Positions 4,353-15,248 of a stretch of 64,000 bases of DNA are shown piece by piece (position 1 is the first letter of the stretch; each line of letters starts with the position of its first letter). Below the pieces are notes generated by a model. That model ran no database searches. It was not told where the DNA came from and saw only the letters and a program-made list of their open reading frames with translations. This DNA comes from Proteiniphilum sp. GTDB lineage: Bacteria > Bacteroidota > Bacteroidia > Bacteroidales > Dysgonomonadaceae. Both the position numbers and the translations under genes were made by a program. The stretch spans positions 33,101-97,100 of the forward strand of contig JADMKJ010000026.1 in the NCBI GenBank assembly GCA_015478855.1, in the 5' to 3' direction.

Positions 4353-7300
4353 ATGAGAAAAAAAATCAACATTTTTTTATTCCTGTTCTTTCTAGGTACA
4401 GGAACTCTTTTTGCACAGACCCGTGTGACGGGGAGTGTAGTGGATGAAGGAGGTGAACCTGCTATCGGGGCAACCATCCTGATTAAAGGGACATCTGAAG
4501 GAGCTGTTACTGACAATCAGGGCGTTTTTACAATTACAGCTCCCTCCACAGGAACGCTTGTCATCTCTTATGTAGGATATGTTACACAGGAGGTGGCTGT
4601 TCGTTCCAATGTCAGGGTTGTTTTGGTCCCTGACACGGAGATGCTGGAAGAGGTGGTGATCACCGGTGAGTTCGGGATGAAACGTATCGCCCGTTCTGTA
4701 GGATCAGCTGTACAGAATGTGAAAGCATCCGATATCATTGATTCGGGAAGAGATAATTTTGTTTCGGCATTGCAGGGACGTGTTTCAGGGATGAATGTCA
4801 CCTCTACCGGTGGAGCACCCGGTTCTTCCACGACAGTTGTCTTAAGAAATATCACCTCTATTTCCGGAAACAATCAACCATTGTATGTGATAGATGGGGT
4901 ACCGATGAATAATTCAACATTCGATCCGATCAATATGTGGATTGGGGGTACAGAGAGGTATTCAGTTAGAAATCTCGATTTTGCCTCACGAGGGAATGAT
5001 CTCAATCCCCAGGATATTGAATCAATGACTGTTCTGAAAGGTGCAGCAGCTGCAGCACTCTATGGTTCTGACGCTTCCAACGGAGCAATCATCATCACCA
5101 CCAAAAAGGGGCAGACAGGAAAGGGGAGAGTGCAGTACAGCAACTCCTTCCGTTGGGACAATGCATATGGTTTTCCCGAATTGCAGGATAAGTACGCCAA
5201 CGGTGCTTACGGAACGACCAATTATTATTATACCAGCCGGTTTGGTGGATCATATCCTCCGGGTATGAAGCTGTATGATAATGTGGGTGCCGTTATGCAG
5301 ACCGGTTTTGTAAACAAACATAACCTCGCTGTCGATGGAGGAAGTGAAAAAGCCACCATACGTGCCAGTGCCTCTTTTCTGGATCAGGTAGGTGTTGTGA
5401 AAACGACCGATTATACAAGGATGAATCTATCGCTCTCAGGCCAGGCAAAGATAACTGACTGGTTTGATTTTGAGGGATCCATGCAGTATACCAATACAAA
5501 CAATTCAAAAGCACTGAGAGGTACCGACGGTCCTCTCTACCGGGCCATGCTCTGGCCTCTTGTCGATAATATGTCGAACTACCTTGATGCCGACGGTGCG
5601 CATATGAGGTACCCCGATTACTATATTGATACCGATTTGCTGAATCCTCTTTTTGCGATGAACCGTAACAGATACTTCGACAAGTCGGACCGCTTTCTTA
5701 CCAACATTGCAGCAACGCTGTTCCCGTTAGAGAACCTCTTCCTGCGTGCACAAATTGGATGGGATGTGGGTATGCAGACATTTGAAACATCATTGCATCC
5801 CTATTATGCCGCAAATAACGGAGGAGTGGGTGAGTACCATATATCACAGTCCAATTTTTCTGATCCCACCCTGAATATACTTGCCGGGTACAATACCTCT
5901 TTTTTTAATGAGGAGCTGACCTTTGGTGCTCAGCTAGGGTATCACCAGCAGGAGAACGGAGTGATCCGATTGACAACGATGGGATCGAAATATAAGGTGA
6001 TTGACTTTCAATCGATCAATAACACAGATCCTGCAACCATCATCTCTGCACAGAGAAATACCAAAAGGAGGATACAGGCATTATCTGCCCAGTTTGAGTT
6101 TGGCTATAAAAACATTGTTTTCCTCAATCTCAGGGGCAGGAACGACTGGTCATCGACGCTGCCAAAGCACAATAACAGGTATTTCTACCCGGCTATGGAA
6201 TTATCATTCGTACCCTCTGACCTCTCTTTTCTGAAAGATAACAGCTATCTCAGCTATCTGAAGCTAAGAGGTTCGATCGCACAGGTAGGGAAAGATGCAG
6301 GTCCACTGGAGATTGATCCTGAACTGATTGCTACAGAGCTGACCGGTGGGGGATATAAGTATGGTTTTACAGGCCCCAACAGAAATCTGCGGCCGGAGAT
6401 GACCACCTCTAAAGAGATTGGTTTCGATACCCGTCTGTTCAATGATCGTGTCACAGCTGATTTTACCTATTTTGCCACCCACTGTGCCGATCAGATCGTG
6501 AAAGGTTTCAGGTTAAGTTATGCCACCGGGTTCGTGTTGAACAATATGAATGTGGGTACATTTGATACGTGGGGATGGGAAACCCACATTGATGGTGATA
6601 TTATTCGCGCCCGGAACGGGCTCACATGGAATGTGGGATTGAACATGTCGCATGTGAAATCAGAGATTGTCTCGCTTCCTGAGAATGTGACTGAATATTA
6701 CAATCCCTACACCTGGAACTCGGGGAACATACGTAACGGGATAATGGTGGGACACCCCATCACCACTCTCACCGGCAGAGCCTACGAAAGGAATGATGCC
6801 GGAGAGGTGTTAATCAGCCCAACCACAGGACTACCGGTTGTCTCTCCCCAGTGGAGTGTGATCGGTGACAGAGAGCCTAAATTAAGATTTGGTATTACAA
6901 CCAGTATCAGCTTTAAGGAACTTTATCTTTCAGCCATGTTCTCCGGCAGGTACAAAGCAACCGTGGTGAATGGCACAAAACGATCGATGATGACAAGTGG
7001 CACAAGCTGGGAGTCGGTTACGCTGAGAGAGAGTAAGCCTGTAATTTTCAACGGGGTCTTAAAAGATGGCAATGAGAATACCGATAACCCCACCGCAAAC
7101 AGGATAGCTGTTGATTACAGTGCTTATGGATCATCTATTTACGGCGGTGGAGATGAAGACTGGCTGGAAAAAGATGTCAACTACCTCCGTTTACAGGAGC
7201 TGAGACTATCCTACAGGATCCCTGCCAGTTTGTTAAGCAGAAGCAGCCTGATCTCTTATGCGAACATCTTTATTGCCGGAAATGATCTGTTGACATGGAC

Positions 7301-7436
7301 CAACTACTCCGGTATCGATGCAGTAGGAAATACAGTCTCGGCAGCTGCCGGAGGCACGGGAGGTGAAGGGTACGATGTATGGTCGTTACCAAATCCAAGG
7401 AGTATATCGGTAGGTTTTAGTATTACAGTAAATTAA
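4353..7436 (+). CDS. SusC/RagA family TonB-linked outer-membrane protein
   Basis: Signal peptide, carboxypeptidase-regulatory-like N-terminal domain (VTGSVVDEGGEPAIGATILIKGT), plug (PLYVIDGVPMNNS, AALYGSDASNGAIIITTKKG), beta-barrel; followed by SusD. Confidence 0.97.
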   Translation: MRKKINIFLFLFFLGTGTLFAQTRVTGSVVDEGGEPAIGATILIKGTSEGAVTDNQGVFTITAPSTGTLVISYVGYVTQEVAVRSNVRVVLVPDTEMLEEVVITGEFGMKRIARSVGSAVQNVKASDIIDSGRDNFVSALQGRVSGMNVTSTGGAPGSSTTVVLRNITSISGNNQPLYVIDGVPMNNSTFDPINMWIGGTERYSVRNLDFASRGNDLNPQDIESMTVLKGAAAAALYGSDASNGAIIITTKKGQTGKGRVQYSNSFRWDNAYGFPELQDKYANGAYGTTNYYYTSRFGGSYPPGMKLYDNVGAVMQTGFVNKHNLAVDGGSEKATIRASASFLDQVGVVKTTDYTRMNLSLSGQAKITDWFDFEGSMQYTNTNNSKALRGTDGPLYRAMLWPLVDNMSNYLDADGAHMRYPDYYIDTDLLNPLFAMNRNRYFDKSDRFLTNIAATLFPLENLFLRAQIGWDVGMQTFETSLHPYYAANNGGVGEYHISQSNFSDPTLNILAGYNTSFFNEELTFGAQLGYHQQENGVIRLTTMGSKYKVIDFQSINNTDPATIISAQRNTKRRIQALSAQFEFGYKNIVFLNLRGRNDWSSTLPKHNNRYFYPAMELSFVPSDLSFLKDNSYLSYLKLRGSIAQVGKDAGPLEIDPELIATELTGGGYKYGFTGPNRNLRPEMTTSKEIGFDTRLFNDRVTADFTYFATHCADQIVKGFRLSYATGFVLNNMNVGTFDTWGWETHIDGDIIRARNGLTWNVGLNMSHVKSEIVSLPENVTEYYNPYTWNSGNIRNGIMVGHPITTLTGRAYERNDAGEVLISPTTGLPVVSPQWSVIGDREPKLRFGITTSISFKELYLSAMFSGRYKATVVNGTKRSMMTSGTSWESVTLRESKPVIFNGVLKDGNENTDNPTANRIAVDYSAYGSSIYGGGDEDWLEKDVNYLRLQELRLSYRIPASLLSRSSLISYANIFIAGNDLLTWTNYSGIDAVGNTVSAAAGGTGGEGYDVWSLPNPRSISVGFSITVN

Positions 7437-7538
7437 TAAAATAGATCATATGAAACGAGCATGTGAATCATTTTCACACAAGTAAATGATTAAAGCGAGT
7501 TCCATATGATACCATTGAAAATAAATAATTTTAATCAT

Positions 7539-9419
7539 ATGAAAAAAATATCAATATACCTCATATCACTCTTTCTTCTGATCACTGGTTGCGAAGAATA
7601 TCTGGATGTAAATAAGAATGTGGATGCCCCCGATTATGTGGAGGGATATCTCTATCTGGCAGGTATCACACAGCAGTATCAGGGAGTCTATTGGGATATA
7701 CGGGCTATTGGCCCAATGACGCAGATGATGGGTACCACCGGCTATACAAGCTTTGCTACCCATTATTACAGCGAGGGGAGCGATGCTGCGGGAGAAATAT
7801 GGCGTGTTGTCTACTGGAACCAGGGAATGAATCTTGAAAATATGATCAATCAGTCGATTGAAGCTGAGGAGTGGACACTGGCCGGTATCGGCTATGCGAT
7901 CAAGGCCTTCTCCTGGGATATGATGACGAAAGTACATGCAGAATTGCCCATGGAGGATGCCTTCGTGGATGGCCTGTTGGCACACAATTACGATTATCAG
8001 AAGGATATCTATGCACAGGTGAGGGAGTGGGCATACAAGGCTATTGAGTTACTTGAAACACCCGACAGTCATGAGTATGGCTCCAAGATAAGTGGCAATG
8101 ATTTTATCTATGGTGGCGACAGGGACAAATGGATCAGGTTTGCCTATGCCGTGATCGTGAGAAACCTCTCTTCTCTTTCCAACAAATCCAATTTTGTTGC
8201 TGAGTATGCACCTGAGTTGCTGGAATGTGCCGCCAAATCATTCCAGTCGCCGGATGATGATGCTGTGGTCAGCATAGCCGGTGGCTCACAGCAGGCCCCC
8301 TACAGTGGGTACAATAATTTCTGGGGTACGGCAAGAGGGAATCTCTCCTATTCCTATTTCCAGCACGAATATGCAGTGCAGGTTTTCACGGGTACCGTAC
8401 CCAGGTATGATGAGTCAAATGGAGAGAAGATCAGGGTGGAGGAGAATGATTATTATCCTTATGCTCTTGCCGAAAAGCAGATCGTTGCTGACACCCTGCT
8501 TGATGTTCCGGGACATTACGATCCCCGTGTGGCGGTAAAATTATCGACCACCTCCAACCCGATGTACGAGGATATTGACAATGCCGACAGCGTGAAAACC
8601 TACCGTTATTATGGAGGCTCTTTCACCGGTGCATCAGGTCCCATTGGTACGGCACCCTCGTTCTTTGGCAGGACAAGGACATCGCAATATCCGACCCCGG
8701 AAAACCCCTTGACCAGTCATGACGGCATCGGCAAATGGATCTATCGTGACGATGCACCCTATATCCTGACCACCTGCGCGGAGGTGAAGTTCTGTTTGGC
8801 TGAAGCACTCTGGAAGATGGAGAGAAAACCGGAAGCACTGGAAGCATTCAAAGAGGCTGTAAAGGCAGATATCGGTTTTACCGGCCGATATATCTATCCC
8901 GGCAAGGAGGGGGCAGCCCAGGGAGGTGACAAGATAACCGTCTCTGCGTTCAACACCCTGGCACAGGAGTATATTGCGGGTCCCTATGTGGAGGGGTTGT
9001 CGTTAGCCGATTTCAGCCTCTCCCATATCATGATGCAGAAATTTGTCGCACTCTATCCCTGGGGAGCACCTGAGGTGTGGGTCGATCAGAGAAAGTATCA
9101 TTATGATGTGATATTCACCGGTGATCATCCTTCCAAAGGCAATGGCTGGGATGAGACGCAGGTAGAGCAGAAATGGGACAGTGACCCCACCAAGGTTTAC
9201 AAAGGATTTTATCTTAGTCCGGCTCAGGTAACCAGTCGCAAGGGTACATACAATGTAAAGAATGAAGGATCACCGGCTTACAGGATCAGACCACGATACA
9301 ATTCAGAATATATGTGGAATCTGAAATCGCTGGAGACGCTCATCCCCATCCCGGGTACTGCTGATAATTACCACACATCTATACCCTGGTTTGCTTATCC
9401 GGGTGACTTACCTCAATAA
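7539..9419 (+). CDS. SusD/RagB family nutrient-binding lipoprotein
   Basis: Lipoprotein signal (LFLLITGCEEYLDVNKN), SusD-like sequence, directly downstream of SusC. ATG 7539 (MKKISIYL) preferred over track start 7506. Confidence 0.95.
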   Translation: MKKISIYLISLFLLITGCEEYLDVNKNVDAPDYVEGYLYLAGITQQYQGVYWDIRAIGPMTQMMGTTGYTSFATHYYSEGSDAAGEIWRVVYWNQGMNLENMINQSIEAEEWTLAGIGYAIKAFSWDMMTKVHAELPMEDAFVDGLLAHNYDYQKDIYAQVREWAYKAIELLETPDSHEYGSKISGNDFIYGGDRDKWIRFAYAVIVRNLSSLSNKSNFVAEYAPELLECAAKSFQSPDDDAVVSIAGGSQQAPYSGYNNFWGTARGNLSYSYFQHEYAVQVFTGTVPRYDESNGEKIRVEENDYYPYALAEKQIVADTLLDVPGHYDPRVAVKLSTTSNPMYEDIDNADSVKTYRYYGGSFTGASGPIGTAPSFFGRTRTSQYPTPENPLTSHDGIGKWIYRDDAPYILTTCAEVKFCLAEALWKMERKPEALEAFKEAVKADIGFTGRYIYPGKEGAAQGGDKITVSAFNTLAQEYIAGPYVEGLSLADFSLSHIMMQKFVALYPWGAPEVWVDQRKYHYDVIFTGDHPSKGNGWDETQVEQKWDSDPTKVYKGFYLSPAQVTSRKGTYNVKNEGSPAYRIRPRYNSEYMWNLKSLETLIPIPGTADNYHTSIPWFAYPGDLPQ

Positions 9420-9452: not shown

Positions 9453-10316
9453 ATGAGTAATTTAAAATATATTTCATCGATGCTCCTGTTGATCGGATTG
9501 ATGTCGTGCGATAAGCATGTCATTGAATACGATGCAGAAGCAATATCGGGCGTTGCTGAATTTCAACTGCATTATTTTGTTCCCGTCACCTCCGGTGCTG
9601 CCAACAATATCTATAAGGTTGAGATCAATGATCAGCTCTATGCCAATGATCAGGCAGCCTTGACCACCTACAACGCTATCCCTGGCGGATCCGTGGGACG
9701 TTTTTATACGACCGGAGTAGGTGCGACTAATATCAAGCTGTATCAAGGAACGGACCTCAACCTGGTCTACGATCAGAATTGTACATTGACAGAGGGTAAA
9801 CAGAACATCTTTGTGTATGATTTTGATGAACCACCAGTTGTGATTGATAACGGGTTCCCCTATGTAGCCAATGTCACTGAACATTCAGATACCACTGCCT
9901 GGATTAAGTTTTACAATTTTCTGTTCGAGGAGGATGATCAGCCTACGGACCTCAGGTTACAATATCAGTACCAGTATCCTATTGAGTACAATGAACAGGG
10001 AGCCGTTATTCGCAAGAGTGAATGGACCAATCTGGGAGCACCTGTATCCTTTGGCGAGACAACAGGCTGGGTGCCCGTGATTGTACATAAGAGTGTGCAG
10101 ATCTCCTCCTCCTATGCACGCCTGGATTATAAGATAAAGGTGATTGATGCCAGTGGAAATGATACAGGTGATCTGCAGATCATGAACTCAAGTAATAATT
10201 TTGTCAATTATTCCGACTGGTGGACCGCTTATGTAGGCCGAAGATATCATCATGTGATATCAGGCATGAGGGCTGCAAAACCCACTTCAGCCGTGAGACA
10301 GTTCACTGCTTTATAA
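9453..10316 (+). CDS. PUL-associated lipoprotein of unknown function (possible surface glycan-binding protein)
   Basis: Lipobox LIGLMSCDKH; third gene of the susCD-led co-directional cluster. Confidence 0.6.
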   Translation: MSNLKYISSMLLLIGLMSCDKHVIEYDAEAISGVAEFQLHYFVPVTSGAANNIYKVEINDQLYANDQAALTTYNAIPGGSVGRFYTTGVGATNIKLYQGTDLNLVYDQNCTLTEGKQNIFVYDFDEPPVVIDNGFPYVANVTEHSDTTAWIKFYNFLFEEDDQPTDLRLQYQYQYPIEYNEQGAVIRKSEWTNLGAPVSFGETTGWVPVIVHKSVQISSSYARLDYKIKVIDASGNDTGDLQIMNSSNNFVNYSDWWTAYVGRRYHHVISGMRAAKPTSAVRQFTAL

Positions 10317-10376: not shown

Positions 10377-11228
10377 ATGGTTTTCCGCAAGCACGTCATA
10401 CTTATTTCATTCATTCTATTTTTTTTTGCCTATTCATGCAACACATCTAAAATAACAATGCTGGAACAGGATAATGCTCTACCAAAAAGAGCTGAGGGAG
10501 CATTAAGCGGATCAGATTTTTATTATCAAGCTTTACATATTTCGAATGAGGCACGTGAAAATATGATATTGAAAGAGATTACCTCCGGCAATTTTCCTGA
10601 TTTTATGCGAAAATGGGTGCGGATAGATAAATCGATTCTTACAAAGGATGGAAATTCGCTTTCAGCCTTCTATTATGTCATGCCTGATTATTTAATGATA
10701 GGCTGTGATGATGATTTTTTCAGGATTCCTATGCAACCTCAAACTGCGCAGAAAATTGCCGATGCATTTGGATGTTTTCTTACAACAAGTAAAATCTGTG
10801 ATGATGTGTATGAAGCAGCAATCGTTCAATTGACACCTATGCCTCTCAATCAAAATAGAGATTCATTTACAACCTTTTATCAGCATCATCAGCTTATTGA
10901 AAAACAACGGAAAGGAAGAGAAGGATTAATAGCAGGAATCAAAAAAGATGTGATTATAAGCTCAGCTATAAAGCCGGATAGCCGGCCCAATAGAGTTGCG
11001 ATATATGGTTGGCATAAGCCTGACGGTAATCCCATTCAACCCGTCTATGCCGGTCATGTAGATTGGTATGTTGATTACAGCCACGGTATCAGGCTTGTTT
11101 ATAGGATCATTCATGTGAATGGCAGACCAATGGATTATGAAGATGTATTGAAAGATCCCGAATTAAAAGAGCTGCTTTCAAACGAAAATGGGGCAATGGA
11201 TTTTTTTGCTTACCCATACAAAGAATAA
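10377..11228 (+). CDS. Secreted protein of unknown function
   Basis: N-terminal lipoprotein signal (FFFAYSCNTSK); His/Asp-rich segment YGWHKPDGNPIQPVYAGHVDWYVDYSHGIRLV; no family recognised. Confidence 0.6.
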   Translation: MVFRKHVILISFILFFFAYSCNTSKITMLEQDNALPKRAEGALSGSDFYYQALHISNEARENMILKEITSGNFPDFMRKWVRIDKSILTKDGNSLSAFYYVMPDYLMIGCDDDFFRIPMQPQTAQKIADAFGCFLTTSKICDDVYEAAIVQLTPMPLNQNRDSFTTFYQHHQLIEKQRKGREGLIAGIKKDVIISSAIKPDSRPNRVAIYGWHKPDGNPIQPVYAGHVDWYVDYSHGIRLVYRIIHVNGRPMDYEDVLKDPELKELLSNENGAMDFFAYPYKE

Positions 11229-11239
11229 AATATCATCGT

Positions 11240-13708
11240 ATGAAAAAAATAATCATTCCCTGGTTACTATTATTGGAAGTCACTGTCGTTATAGGTCAAC
11301 AGAGTTGGATCCGTGTGAATCAGATAGGTTATCTGAAAGAGGATGTGAAGGTGGCTGTCTGGATCAGCAAAGAGAAGCAGACACCAGATCAGTTTGAGCT
11401 GATCGATGCCGTTACAGGTAAAGTAGTCTGTCACAGTGAGATGGTAAAGGATAGTGGTGGCCTGTGGGGTTTTGACGCCTCCGCCCGTCTCAATTTCTCC
11501 ACTTTCACCGTTCCAGGCACCTACATCATCAGAGCCCATGGCGTGCAGTCAGTCCCATTTAAGATAGGCAACGATATTTATGCCGGTGCGACGGAGATAC
11601 CGCTTAAGTATATGCGTCAGCAGCGGTGTGGGTACAATCCCTTCCTGGAGGACTCATGTCATGTGCATGATGCCATCTCTGTGGGTGATCCCAAAGGAGA
11701 AAGAGACGGTCAATATTTCAATACTACCGGCGGGTGGCACGATGCTTCGGACTACCTGCAATATGTCACCACGTCGGCCAATGCTGTCTATCAGATGCTG
11801 TTTGCTTACCGTCAGTACCCCGAGGCTTTCGGTGACCACTACGATGCCAATGGTCATGAAGGTGCCAACGATATCCCGGATATCCTGGATGAGGCGAAAT
11901 GGGGACTGGACTGGCTGGTGAAGATGAATCCTGATACCGCCACCTACTTCAACCAGCTGGCGGACGACAGGGATCATGTGGGTTTCACGCTGCCCAACGA
12001 ACAAAAAGTAGATTACGGATGGGGTGCCGGAAAAGAACGTCCTGTCTATTTTGTAAGCCCTAAACCACAGGGTTTATTTACACACAAAAACCGAAGCAGA
12101 GGTATGGCTTCCACTTTGGGGAAATATGCCTCCTCCTTCTCACTGGGTGCTAAAATGCTGGCTGCCTATTATCCTGAATTTTCGGTGATGTTACAACAGA
12201 AAGCGGCAGATGCCTACCGGAAAGGGGCGGAGAACCCGGGTGTCTCACAGACCGCACCCGGCGGGGCACCCTACTTTTACGAAGAGGATAACTGGGCGGA
12301 TGATATGCAGCTGGCAGCTGCGGAGATGTACCACACCTCCGGTGAGGGAGCATACCTGAAACAAGCTGTGGACTACGGGCGACTGGAGCCGGTGACACCC
12401 TGGATGGGTGCCGACTCGGCACGCCATTACCAGTGGTACCCTTTTGTGAACCTCGGAAACTACCATCTGGCGGTGCAGCACGACGACCTCCGTGCGCAGA
12501 AGGAGTTTATCCGCAATATGCGGAGCGGCCTGCAGCGCGTGAAGGAGAGGGCAGGGGAGAATGCTTTCATGCACGGGATACCCTTTATCTGGTGTTCCAA
12601 TAACCTGACGGTGGGCTTTATCACACAATGCCGTCTCTACCATGAGATCACCGGCGATGATGCTTTCCTGGAGATTGAGACAGCCATGCGTGACTGGCTC
12701 CTGGGGTGCAATCCCTGGGGCACCTCCATGATCGTGGGATACCCCTCCCACGGCGATACGCCGGATGATCCCCATTCCGCCTTCACCCACCTGCATCAGA
12801 TACCTGTCACCGGCGGTATCGTGGATGGTCCCATCTACCACTCCATCTTCAGCAGCCTGATAGGGATCTACCTGGCCGGGGAGGATGAGTATGCCCCCTT
12901 CCAGTCAGGCTACGTGGTGTATCACGACGATTATGCCGATTACTCCACCAATGAACCCACCATGGATGGTACAGCCTCGCTCACCTACTATCTCGGTTAT
13001 CTGACATCCCAAGCAGGTCATTCCACCATTGTGGAGGGTGGAATCGTACGGGGCGACAGCACCAGAAAACAGCTCTCGCTGGTCTTCACCGGACATGCAT
13101 ATGCCGATGGTGCTGAGGTGATCATGAAAGTGCTGAAGAAGTACGATGTGAAGGCCTCCTTTTTCCTTACAGGCGATTTTTACAGGAAGTTCCCCACCAT
13201 CACCCGTGGTTTGCAGAAAGAGGGTCACTACCTTGGGCCCCATTCCGACAGGCATCTGCTCTATGCCGACTGGCAGAGGCGCGATTCCACGCTGGTTACT
13301 CGGATAGCCTTTGAGAAAGACCTCAGGGATAACTACCTTGCGATGGAGAAAGCAGGAGTGAGAACAGACACGCCACAATATTTTATGCCACCCTATGAGT
13401 GGTACAACAGTGAGATCAGCGGCTGGGCCGGGGCGATGGGGGTAAAGCTGGTGAACTTCTCACCGGGAACAACCTCCAACGCCGACTATACCACACCGGA
13501 GATGAGGAATTATCTCTCTTCGGAGACCATCTATCGCAATATCATCGCTTATGAAGAGCGTGAGGGCCTGAATGGTTTCCTGCTGCTGATGCATATAGGG
13601 ACGGATCCCGGACGAACGGATAAACTATACAACCGGCTGGATGAGCTGATCAAAGAGTTGCAAAGAAGAGGATATAAGTTCTCTGGAATAGATGAGTTGT
13701 TAAAATAG
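11240..13708 (+). CDS. Bimodular secreted enzyme: CelD_N Ig-like + GH9 catalytic domain + C-terminal NodB-like polysaccharide deacetylase
   Basis: GH9 signatures GGWHDASDYLQY and YSTNEPTMDGTASLTYYLGYL; C-terminal NodB features KYDVKASFFLTGDF, GPHSDRH, MPPYEW, LLLMHIG. Confidence 0.9.
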   Translation: MKKIIIPWLLLLEVTVVIGQQSWIRVNQIGYLKEDVKVAVWISKEKQTPDQFELIDAVTGKVVCHSEMVKDSGGLWGFDASARLNFSTFTVPGTYIIRAHGVQSVPFKIGNDIYAGATEIPLKYMRQQRCGYNPFLEDSCHVHDAISVGDPKGERDGQYFNTTGGWHDASDYLQYVTTSANAVYQMLFAYRQYPEAFGDHYDANGHEGANDIPDILDEAKWGLDWLVKMNPDTATYFNQLADDRDHVGFTLPNEQKVDYGWGAGKERPVYFVSPKPQGLFTHKNRSRGMASTLGKYASSFSLGAKMLAAYYPEFSVMLQQKAADAYRKGAENPGVSQTAPGGAPYFYEEDNWADDMQLAAAEMYHTSGEGAYLKQAVDYGRLEPVTPWMGADSARHYQWYPFVNLGNYHLAVQHDDLRAQKEFIRNMRSGLQRVKERAGENAFMHGIPFIWCSNNLTVGFITQCRLYHEITGDDAFLEIETAMRDWLLGCNPWGTSMIVGYPSHGDTPDDPHSAFTHLHQIPVTGGIVDGPIYHSIFSSLIGIYLAGEDEYAPFQSGYVVYHDDYADYSTNEPTMDGTASLTYYLGYLTSQAGHSTIVEGGIVRGDSTRKQLSLVFTGHAYADGAEVIMKVLKKYDVKASFFLTGDFYRKFPTITRGLQKEGHYLGPHSDRHLLYADWQRRDSTLVTRIAFEKDLRDNYLAMEKAGVRTDTPQYFMPPYEWYNSEISGWAGAMGVKLVNFSPGTTSNADYTTPEMRNYLSSETIYRNIIAYEEREGLNGFLLLMHIGTDPGRTDKLYNRLDELIKELQRRGYKFSGIDELLK

Positions 13709-13781: not shown

Positions 13782-15248
13782 ATGAAAAGAGCATTTGCCT
13801 TCACGAATTATTTAAAAATGAACCTCCTGTTGCTCACGCTCCTGCTGCTTGTATCTCCCTCATTAGCACAGACAGCATTGCAGCGTTTCGTCACTCATCC
13901 CGCGCTGAAGCATGCTTCGGTGGGCATCTCGGTGACTGATCTGGAGACAGGCAGGAGTATCGTGTCGCACAACGGAGAGCAATCGCTCACACCCGCATCT
14001 GTATTAAAACTGATTACAACAGCTACAGCTGTTGAAACACTGGGTGAAAATTTTCGCTACAAAACAGATATTGGGCTCGATGCCGGGAATCCTTCTCGCA
14101 TACTGGTGATCGGATCAGGCGATCCCACCCTGGGTAGTGAAGCTTTTAATGATGACCTCCACACTTTTTTTATCACTGTGGCAGACGCCCTCAGGAAAAC
14201 AGTTCCCGGCAACAGGGAATATACGCTTTATGTGGTGGATAACCTGTTTGGTTACGATGGGATTTCGCCGGAGTGGACCTGGATTGATATGGGGAACTAC
14301 TACGCTGCGGGTGCCTACGGCATCAGCATTTTTGATAACAGTTATAAGCTCTTTTTCAATACGACTGATTTGAACAGCTGTCCGAAAATTCTACGTACTG
14401 AGCCGGAGATTAAAAATCTTACATTTCAAAATGCAGTTACCCTGAACAGCACTGGACGCGATAACGGTTATATCTACGGAATACCTTTTTCCAACGAGAG
14501 AGCTGTCAGAGGGAATATTCCTTCAGGAAGAAAGGAGTTCAGCATTAAAGGGGATATACCTGACCCGGGAATGTTGCTGGGCAAGACACTGGCCGGCTAT
14601 CTCACCCGCGCCGGATTGAACATAGGTAATGTGGAAACAGCAAGGATGGATTATCTTAAAGCAAATTGTATCTCAGAAAGAAAAGATCAAAACAGGATTG
14701 AAAAGGTGCTTTGTACATTTGTTTCACGCCCTTTGAAAGAGATTATCCAAGAGGTGAATGTAGAGAGTAACAACCACTATGCAGAACATCTTATTCGTAC
14801 CATCGGGAGAAAGAGCAGGAGTGATATATATGACGATGCGCTGGAGGCTGGTGTGACCTATGTGAAGGATTTCTGGACCAGCAAAGGTCTTGCGGCCACA
14901 TCGCTGCAGATGCATGACGGCAGTGGCCTGGCTCCTCAGAATAGCGTAAGCCCACAGTTTCTGACCGATCTGCTGGTTTATATGTATGGCAGGAGTGAAG
15001 AGTCGTCTGTGTTTTTCAATTCGTTGCCGAGAGCCGGGCAGGAGGGAACACTCAGATCCTTCCTGAGAGATACGAGACTGAGCGGCAGAATAGCAGCCAA
15101 GAGCGGCAGCATTGGTGGGGTGCAGTGTTATTCCGGCTATCTGATCGACGGGAGAAAAAAATATGCATTCACCGTGATGGTGAACAAGTTCAATGGCACA
15201 CGTCCACAGGTAAGAGAGGCTATAGAACAGTTTCTACTGGGTTTGTAA
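13782..15248 (+). CDS. dacB: D-alanyl-D-alanine carboxypeptidase/endopeptidase (PBP4, peptidase S13)
   Basis: SxxK in TPASVLKLITTA, SNN in VESNNHYAEHL, KSG in AAKSGSIGGV. Confidence 0.93.
   Translation: MKRAFAFTNYLKMNLLLLTLLLLVSPSLAQTALQRFVTHPALKHASVGISVTDLETGRSIVSHNGEQSLTPASVLKLITTATAVETLGENFRYKTDIGLDAGNPSRILVIGSGDPTLGSEAFNDDLHTFFITVADALRKTVPGNREYTLYVVDNLFGYDGISPEWTWIDMGNYYAAGAYGISIFDNSYKLFFNTTDLNSCPKILRTEPEIKNLTFQNAVTLNSTGRDNGYIYGIPFSNERAVRGNIPSGRKEFSIKGDIPDPGMLLGKTLAGYLTRAGLNIGNVETARMDYLKANCISERKDQNRIEKVLCTFVSRPLKEIIQEVNVESNNHYAEHLIRTIGRKSRSDIYDDALEAGVTYVKDFWTSKGLAATSLQMHDGSGLAPQNSVSPQFLTDLLVYMYGRSEESSVFFNSLPRAGQEGTLRSFLRDTRLSGRIAAKSGSIGGVQCYSGYLIDGRKKYAFTVMVNKFNGTRPQVREAIEQFLLGL

Follow-up and report, generated by a model that had tools for sequence, protein, structure and literature searches.

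The GH9-NodB locus

The window, by which we mean the whole stretch of 64,000 nucleotides of Proteiniphilum sp. DNA that was analyzed, carries a gene whose product joins a CelD_N Ig-like domain and a GH9 catalytic domain to a C-terminal NodB domain, and which lies between genes for a SusC/SusD pair and two putative lipoproteins on one side and a PBP4-type carboxypeptidase on the other (Table 1). The gene opens with an ATG and runs without an internal stop, and Pfam matches cover both of these parts of its product (Polysacc_deac_1 at residues 622-737, E 3e-13), bearing out the sequence-only reading of an intact GH9 domain and a NodB-like domain in one protein. The motifs quoted in that reading (GGWHDASDY, STNEPTMDGTA, HSDRH, MPPY, LLLMH and VFTGHAYADGAE) were each found in the translation, and the adjoining SusC/SusD pair agrees with the PUL-type setting it had proposed. 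The protein begins with a signal peptide and lacks a lipobox, and we infer from this predicted export that it is periplasmic or secreted. The 283-aa putative lipoprotein encoded directly upstream drew no match in Pfam or NCBIfam and no significant one in the PDB; a single relative of it occurs in the genomes of 60 relatives, there again immediately ahead of a GH9 gene (G554). In that close relative the GH9 is present and no NodB was detected behind it (L248). A search of the openly accessible literature found no paper on a GH9-NodB fusion or on a frameshifted bacterial GH9.

Table 1. Features of the GH9-NodB locus in the window, and loci of relatives with NodB in the -1 frame
Feature	Position	Strand	Details
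SusC/RagA TonB-linked outer-membrane protein	4353..7436	+	upstream of GH9-NodB
SusD-like_2 lipoprotein	7506..9419	+	
287-aa putative lipoprotein	9453..10316	+	no Pfam or NCBIfam match
283-aa putative lipoprotein	10377..11228	+	directly upstream of GH9-NodB
GH9-NodB fusion gene	11240..13708	+	single in-frame ORF, 822 aa
CelD_N Ig-like domain	11297..11551	+	residues 20-104, Pfam E 3e-21
GH9 catalytic domain	11579..12994	+	residues 114-585, Pfam PF00759 E 2e-65
NodB/CE4-fold domain	13037..13705	+	residues 600-822
Motif 1, rebuilt (F616-G624)	13085..13111	+	FTGHAYADG
Motif 2 (H668-S-D-R-H672)	13241..13255	+	metal His pair, both His 122/122
Motif 3 (residues 716-720)	13385..13399	+	MPPYE; canonical Arg lost, new Glu720 122/122
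Motif 4 (D749-Y750)	13484..13489	+	Asp 122/122
Motif 5 (LLLMH with H785)	13580..13594	+	H785 122/122
R792	13613-13615	+	122/122
PBP4/Peptidase_S13 D-Ala-D-Ala carboxypeptidase	13782..15248	+	73 bp downstream of GH9-NodB
Relatives with NodB in the -1 frame			L036, L049, L057, L060, L068, L072, L083, L094, L095, L098, L100, L106, L108, L114, L118, L125, L126, L128, L131, L143, L149, L154, L195-L221 (part), L245, L247

The GH9 domain

The two motif Asp (D168 and D171) and the acid Glu (E572) are conserved at 97% or more in 95 relatives, and both the PF00759 profile and Foldseek matches to GH9 structures place the domain in the family (full-length GH9-NodB model: pLDDT 84.8, pTM 0.73). By profile and fold it is closest to 3x17, J30, CelD, BoGH9A and CbhA (E 2e-53 to 6e-30); its nearest structures are cellulases and xyloglucanases. 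A link to the GH9 exo-beta-D-glucosaminidases of Vibrio and Photobacterium type, exo-glucosaminidase activity having been raised from the sequence at first, found no backing: VC0615 (6gdt) scores E 2e-15, PBPRA0520 is likewise distant, and by profile and fold both rank well below the Ig-type endoglucanases.

A NodB family with a rebuilt catalytic site

The AF2 model of the C-terminal domain, built with 57 sequences, has the distorted beta/alpha barrel of the CE4 NodB fold (pLDDT 95.8, pTM 0.93); Foldseek matches it to many CE4 structures with a probability of 1.00, and PF01522 is found in 57/57 of the sequences. The nearest PDB profiles are MurNAc-type deacetylases (BaCE4, 2j13, E 1e-14; PdaA, E 1e-12), and the top Foldseek matches are BA3943, a CE4 pseudoenzyme according to its PDB titles.

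These NodB domains form a discrete family. When 396 Bacteroidota genomes were searched with the NodB domain, 42 matches at 43-59% identity scored above 200 bits, the window itself excluded, and the interval from 209 down to 41 bits was empty. Scanning GTDB genomes with NodB gave at least 539 relatives, and the best 80 of these are mostly from Bacteroidota (Proteiniphilum, Tannerella forsythia, Bacteroides luti, Paludibacter, Pontibacter, Chitinophaga, Pedobacter, Algoriphagus and Gelidibacter), along with some labeled Ignavibacteria, Acidobacteria/Pyrinomonadaceae, Marinimicrobia, Caldithrix and Aminicenantes; the window sequence groups with Proteiniphilum (Dysgonomonadaceae). The group of GH9-NodB fusions sharing FTGH-x-[YF]-ADG that had been predicted does exist. 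The family also has a member fused to a Beta-lactamase2 (serine hydrolase) domain (L063:8120-10024), and several other loci have separate Beta-lactamase2 genes 1-3 kb upstream.

Across an alignment of 122 NodB domains, mainly from Bacteroidota, motif 1 has the consensus F[TS][GA][HDG][ED][FY]xxG, and neither the base-Asp nor the metal-Asp position holds an Asp in any member. In place of the canonical (T/S)FDD, the residue corresponding to F616 is followed by T (112) or S (10) and then by G (106), A (15) or S (1), which upholds the view that this motif is non-canonical and incompatible with the usual Asp-base chemistry of CE4. In the model, strand 1 ends at T617-G618 and gives way to a loop, H619-G624, with a one-residue insertion relative to PdaA and BaCE4. 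Position 619 is H in 58 members, D in 53, G in 10 and A in 1, and 10 of the 11 members without H or D (111/122 have one or the other) carry D620. His619 alone was therefore rejected as a conserved replacement, and only the pattern of a His/Asp or a following Asp holds. Position 620 is acidic in 112 of the 122 (E98, D14), the Ala of the window being slightly off the family. The sequence-only reading had taken the Asp of ADG for a displaced motif-1 Asp; this part fell, as D623 (D95/E24 across the family) aligns with a variable residue of the PdaA FDNGYENG-type loop.

The H(S/T)xxH of motif 2 is retained, as are the motif-4 Asp and motif-5 His that make up the Asp-His pair, whereas in motif 3 (canonically RPPYG) the Arg has given way to L, I, M or V and the Gly to an invariant Glu, with the Pro-Tyr/Phe kept. 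Elsewhere in the same genome a CE4 protein has the canonical series (LTFDDGP...HTFHH...FRPPHG), and the odd motif 1 is therefore particular to this NodB family; nor is it due to chance or sequencing error, given that the family is discrete and all 122 members are without both Asp. According to PMC10967932, the base Asp of canonical CE4 enzymes is anchored by the Arg of motif 3. Because the two were lost together and a Glu became fixed in the same loop, the change reads as rewiring, and these coordinated losses alongside H668, H672, E720, D749, H785 and R792 at 122/122 point to selection. On this alignment, the altered site is a family trait rather than decay.

The losses are also what would be expected if NodB were a non-catalytic CE4 relative serving as a glycan-binding module that targets GH9 to peptidoglycan, a reading we consider unlikely, if deserving of serious weight. 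The motif-1 Asp pair and the motif-3 Arg are gone, the pseudoenzyme BA3943 is among the closest folds, and CE4 homologues without activity are known, namely BA0330/BA0331 (PMC4505593) and BA0150/4M1B (PMC10967932). A binding module, however, would not obviously need the His pair, the Asp-His pair, E720 and R792, all invariant in the 122 domains.

Gene neighborhoods

The SusC and SusD of the window are 39-41% and 28-32% identical, respectively, to those of Pontibacter GH9-NodB loci, and the GH9-NodB gene of T. forsythia likewise adjoins SusC/SusD (L084). In seven loci (L075, L083, L245, L250, L251, L252 and L257) PBP4 comes after GH9-NodB or after a NodB that stands alone. Three of these, from the genus of the window (L250, L251 and L252), have NodB alone, with no GH9 upstream and PBP4 still behind.

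Genes of peptidoglycan turnover recur around the gene in relatives. A Gelidibacter locus (L132) reads SSF (MurT-like symporter)-MurQ-GH3 (NagZ-like)-GH18-NamZ-GH9NodB, a Paludibacter locus (L091) SSF-GH9NodB-NlpC/P60-enolase-fold epimerase-golvesin protein-NamZ, and a locus from a Bacteroidia MAG (L078) SusCD-GH9NodB-golvesin protein-GT2-SpoIID-AmpG-NamZ, while Pontibacter loci have DigH-type GHL10, Amidase_2, MurQ and SSF around GH9-NodB. At least one of 12 reference genes, chosen after the clusters had been seen, was present at 32 of 121 loci, which are phylogenetically non-independent (eight are from Pontibacter), and at none of 40 random 20-kb regions drawn from genomes bearing the NodB family (Fisher p 5e-5); two or more were present at 17 loci and at none of the random regions. 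The other 89 of the 121 have none of the 12 within about 10 kb, and in the genome of the window NamZ and SpoIID lie together on another contig (C7).

These neighborhoods bear on the substrate. We regard it as improbable that the locus is an ordinary PUL for chitosan, acetylated beta-glucan or hemicellulose, with GH9 as a glucanase or exo-glucosaminidase and NodB as an acetyl esterase. The adjoining SusC/SusD genes and the endoglucanases and BoGH9A nearest to GH9 would suit such a role, but the exo-glucosaminidase branch is only distantly related to this GH9, Pfam finds no other plant-polysaccharide CAZyme among the local genes of the window, and those beside the relatives' gene are MurQ, NamZ, AmpG, SpoIID, DigH and amidases. 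The chitosan or beta-glucan substrate entertained from the sequence thus gains no support from gene context, which favors peptidoglycan, and the wider idea of an acetylated amino-sugar glycan as target is probably right.

GH9 and NodB in different reading frames

In the window GH9 and NodB are a plain in-frame fusion with no change of frame, as they are at 79 of the 148 loci that we classified. NodB is shifted into the -1 frame with respect to GH9 at 34 loci and into the +1 frame at 2; it precedes GH9 at 5, and at 28 there is no GH9 upstream. By parsimony on a quick NodB tree the -1 state involves 16 changes, at least four of which are forced by starred branches.

All 34 of the -1 junctions contain an in-frame A_AAA_AA[A/G] heptamer, compared with 6 of the 79 fused junctions and a background of 26 per 60,151 GH9 codons. 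Adding two loci from the family of the window (L245 and L247) gives 36 sites with the heptamer at the frame change, 26 of which have a 0-frame stop immediately past it. Every one of the 24 sites with runs of six or seven A has a Shine-Dalgarno-like sequence (GGAGG, AGGAG or GGGAG) 5-22 nt upstream, against a background of 2.5% of windows, whereas 11 of the 12 sites with runs of nine or ten A are without one. A stem-loop downstream of the heptamer is strong at some sites and absent at others (mean z -0.86). In these relatives the short-run sites would fit programmed -1 frameshifting of the dnaX type, stimulated by the Shine-Dalgarno-like element, and the longer runs would fit ribosomal or transcriptional slippage. 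In many relatives, the window not being among them, a programmed -1 shift would seem to determine the ratio of GH9 to NodB.

We give very little credence to the -1 junctions being sequencing errors or broken genes, or to NodB starting independently, an objection that touches only the recoding. Homopolymers are error-prone, 12 of the 36 sites are long A runs, some sites are in MAGs, and broken genes do occur (a stop within NodB at L133 and a disrupted GH9 at L253, possibly assembly errors or pseudogenes). Against this stand the heptamer at every one of the 34 shifted junctions, the upstream element at all 24 short-run sites, and the agreement of eight Pontibacter genomes. Nearly all -1 loci also have no NodB start codon upstream, in contrast to the two +1 loci, where NodB has its own start and a signal-peptide-like N-terminus. 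Programmed recoding remains our preferred account of the -1 loci.

Discussion

We propose that GH9-NodB is an exported two-domain enzyme that helps dismantle the peptidoglycan glycan for salvage. GH9, with its catalytic residues kept, would be expected to cleave a beta-1,4 glycan, and NodB would act on the same amino-sugar chain. In NodB the CE4 fold survives along with the metal His pair and the Asp-His acid pair; the base Asp, metal Asp and Arg were lost together, with H/D619 and the invariant E720 and R792 fixed in their place. It is most likely still a metal-dependent deacylase, in which H/D619 may serve as the third ligand and E720 as the base, and coupled deacetylation and hydrolysis by the one protein is a possible, putative activity. 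We put the probability of salvage by GH9 and a rewired NodB deacylase, whose substrate, metal binding and chemistry are all inferred, at about 0.5. In its favor we count the peptidoglycan genes near the gene in relatives and PBP4 in the window, the MurNAc-type deacetylases as nearest NodB profiles, the Beta-lactamase2-NodB fusion, and the fact that GH9 and NodB are fused, adjacent or recoded throughout the family. Against it stand the 89 loci without reference genes, the separate contig of NamZ and SpoIID, the cellulases and xyloglucanases as nearest GH9 structures and the BA3943 match.

A broader, tentative proposal, which in our judgment has rather less than an even chance of holding as a whole, would combine a rewired, active NodB deacylase in salvage with several Bacteroidota lineages that repeatedly switched between a fixed fusion and a dnaX-like -1 site. 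Recoding would then yield GH9 by itself together with a defined proportion of GH9-NodB, with short A runs stimulated by the Shine-Dalgarno-like element and runs of nine or ten A slipping by virtue of their length. A sub-stoichiometric supply of NodB would also suit the glycan-binding module considered above.

If the salvage reading is true, CE4-fold chemistry does not require the motif-1 Asp pair regarded as the hallmark of CE4, and pipelines that name such proteins deacetylases from nothing more than a Pfam score misinterpret the site. Peptidoglycan salvage in Bacteroidota, which MurNAc auxotrophs such as Tannerella forsythia need, would also gain a component. The recoding, if real, would be an example, replicated in nature, of frameshifting that sets the stoichiometry of enzyme domains, in a class whose ribosomes rarely pair with a Shine-Dalgarno sequence for initiation; in Bacteroidia, a Shine-Dalgarno-dependent +1 frameshift is nevertheless used in prfB (PMC8710568).

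Among known systems, PdaA (1w17/1ny1) and BaCE4 (2j13) share with NodB the fold, the best profile match, the HxxxH motif, the motif-4 Asp and the motif-5 His; NodB differs in having F[TS][GA][HDG] for FD(N/D)G, no motif-3 Arg, the gained Glu720, the longer motif-1 loop and the fusion to GH9. BA3943 (6hm9/7bkf) and BA0150 (4m1b) resemble it in their close fold and their departure from the canonical catalytic motifs, but the new residues of NodB are conserved across several phyla, suggesting a functional domain rather than a recent loss of function. BoPDA of Bacteroides ovatus, another Bacteroidota CE4 protein with a non-canonical metal site, shows the reverse losses, having retained the Asp of motif 1 (TQDD) but not the second His (PMC11713874). 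The murTKQ operon of Tannerella forsythia serves MurNAc salvage, and GH9-NodB is not among its members as described (PMC5790795); an SSF transporter and MurQ nonetheless turn up repeatedly next to GH9-NodB, namely in Pontibacter, Gelidibacter and L068. The Ig-type GH9 enzymes (3x17, J30, CelD, BoGH9A and CbhA) have the same CelD_N-GH9 architecture and catalytic residues as the window enzyme, which is set apart by its C-terminal NodB and by the peptidoglycan-salvage genes that neighbor its family.

The dnaX frameshift site combines an A_AAA_AA(G/A) slippery sequence, an upstream Shine-Dalgarno-like element and a nearby 0-frame stop, and the relatives of the window gene have these same features. 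Two reference papers on frameshifting, the second in its first 300,000 characters, name no deacetylases, cellulases or glucanases. A -1 frameshift is known from an archaeal alpha-L-fucosidase (PMC8037382); compared with this and with dnaX, the relatives would represent a bacterial glycosidase, predicted to be exported, to which recoding adds an optional enzyme domain.
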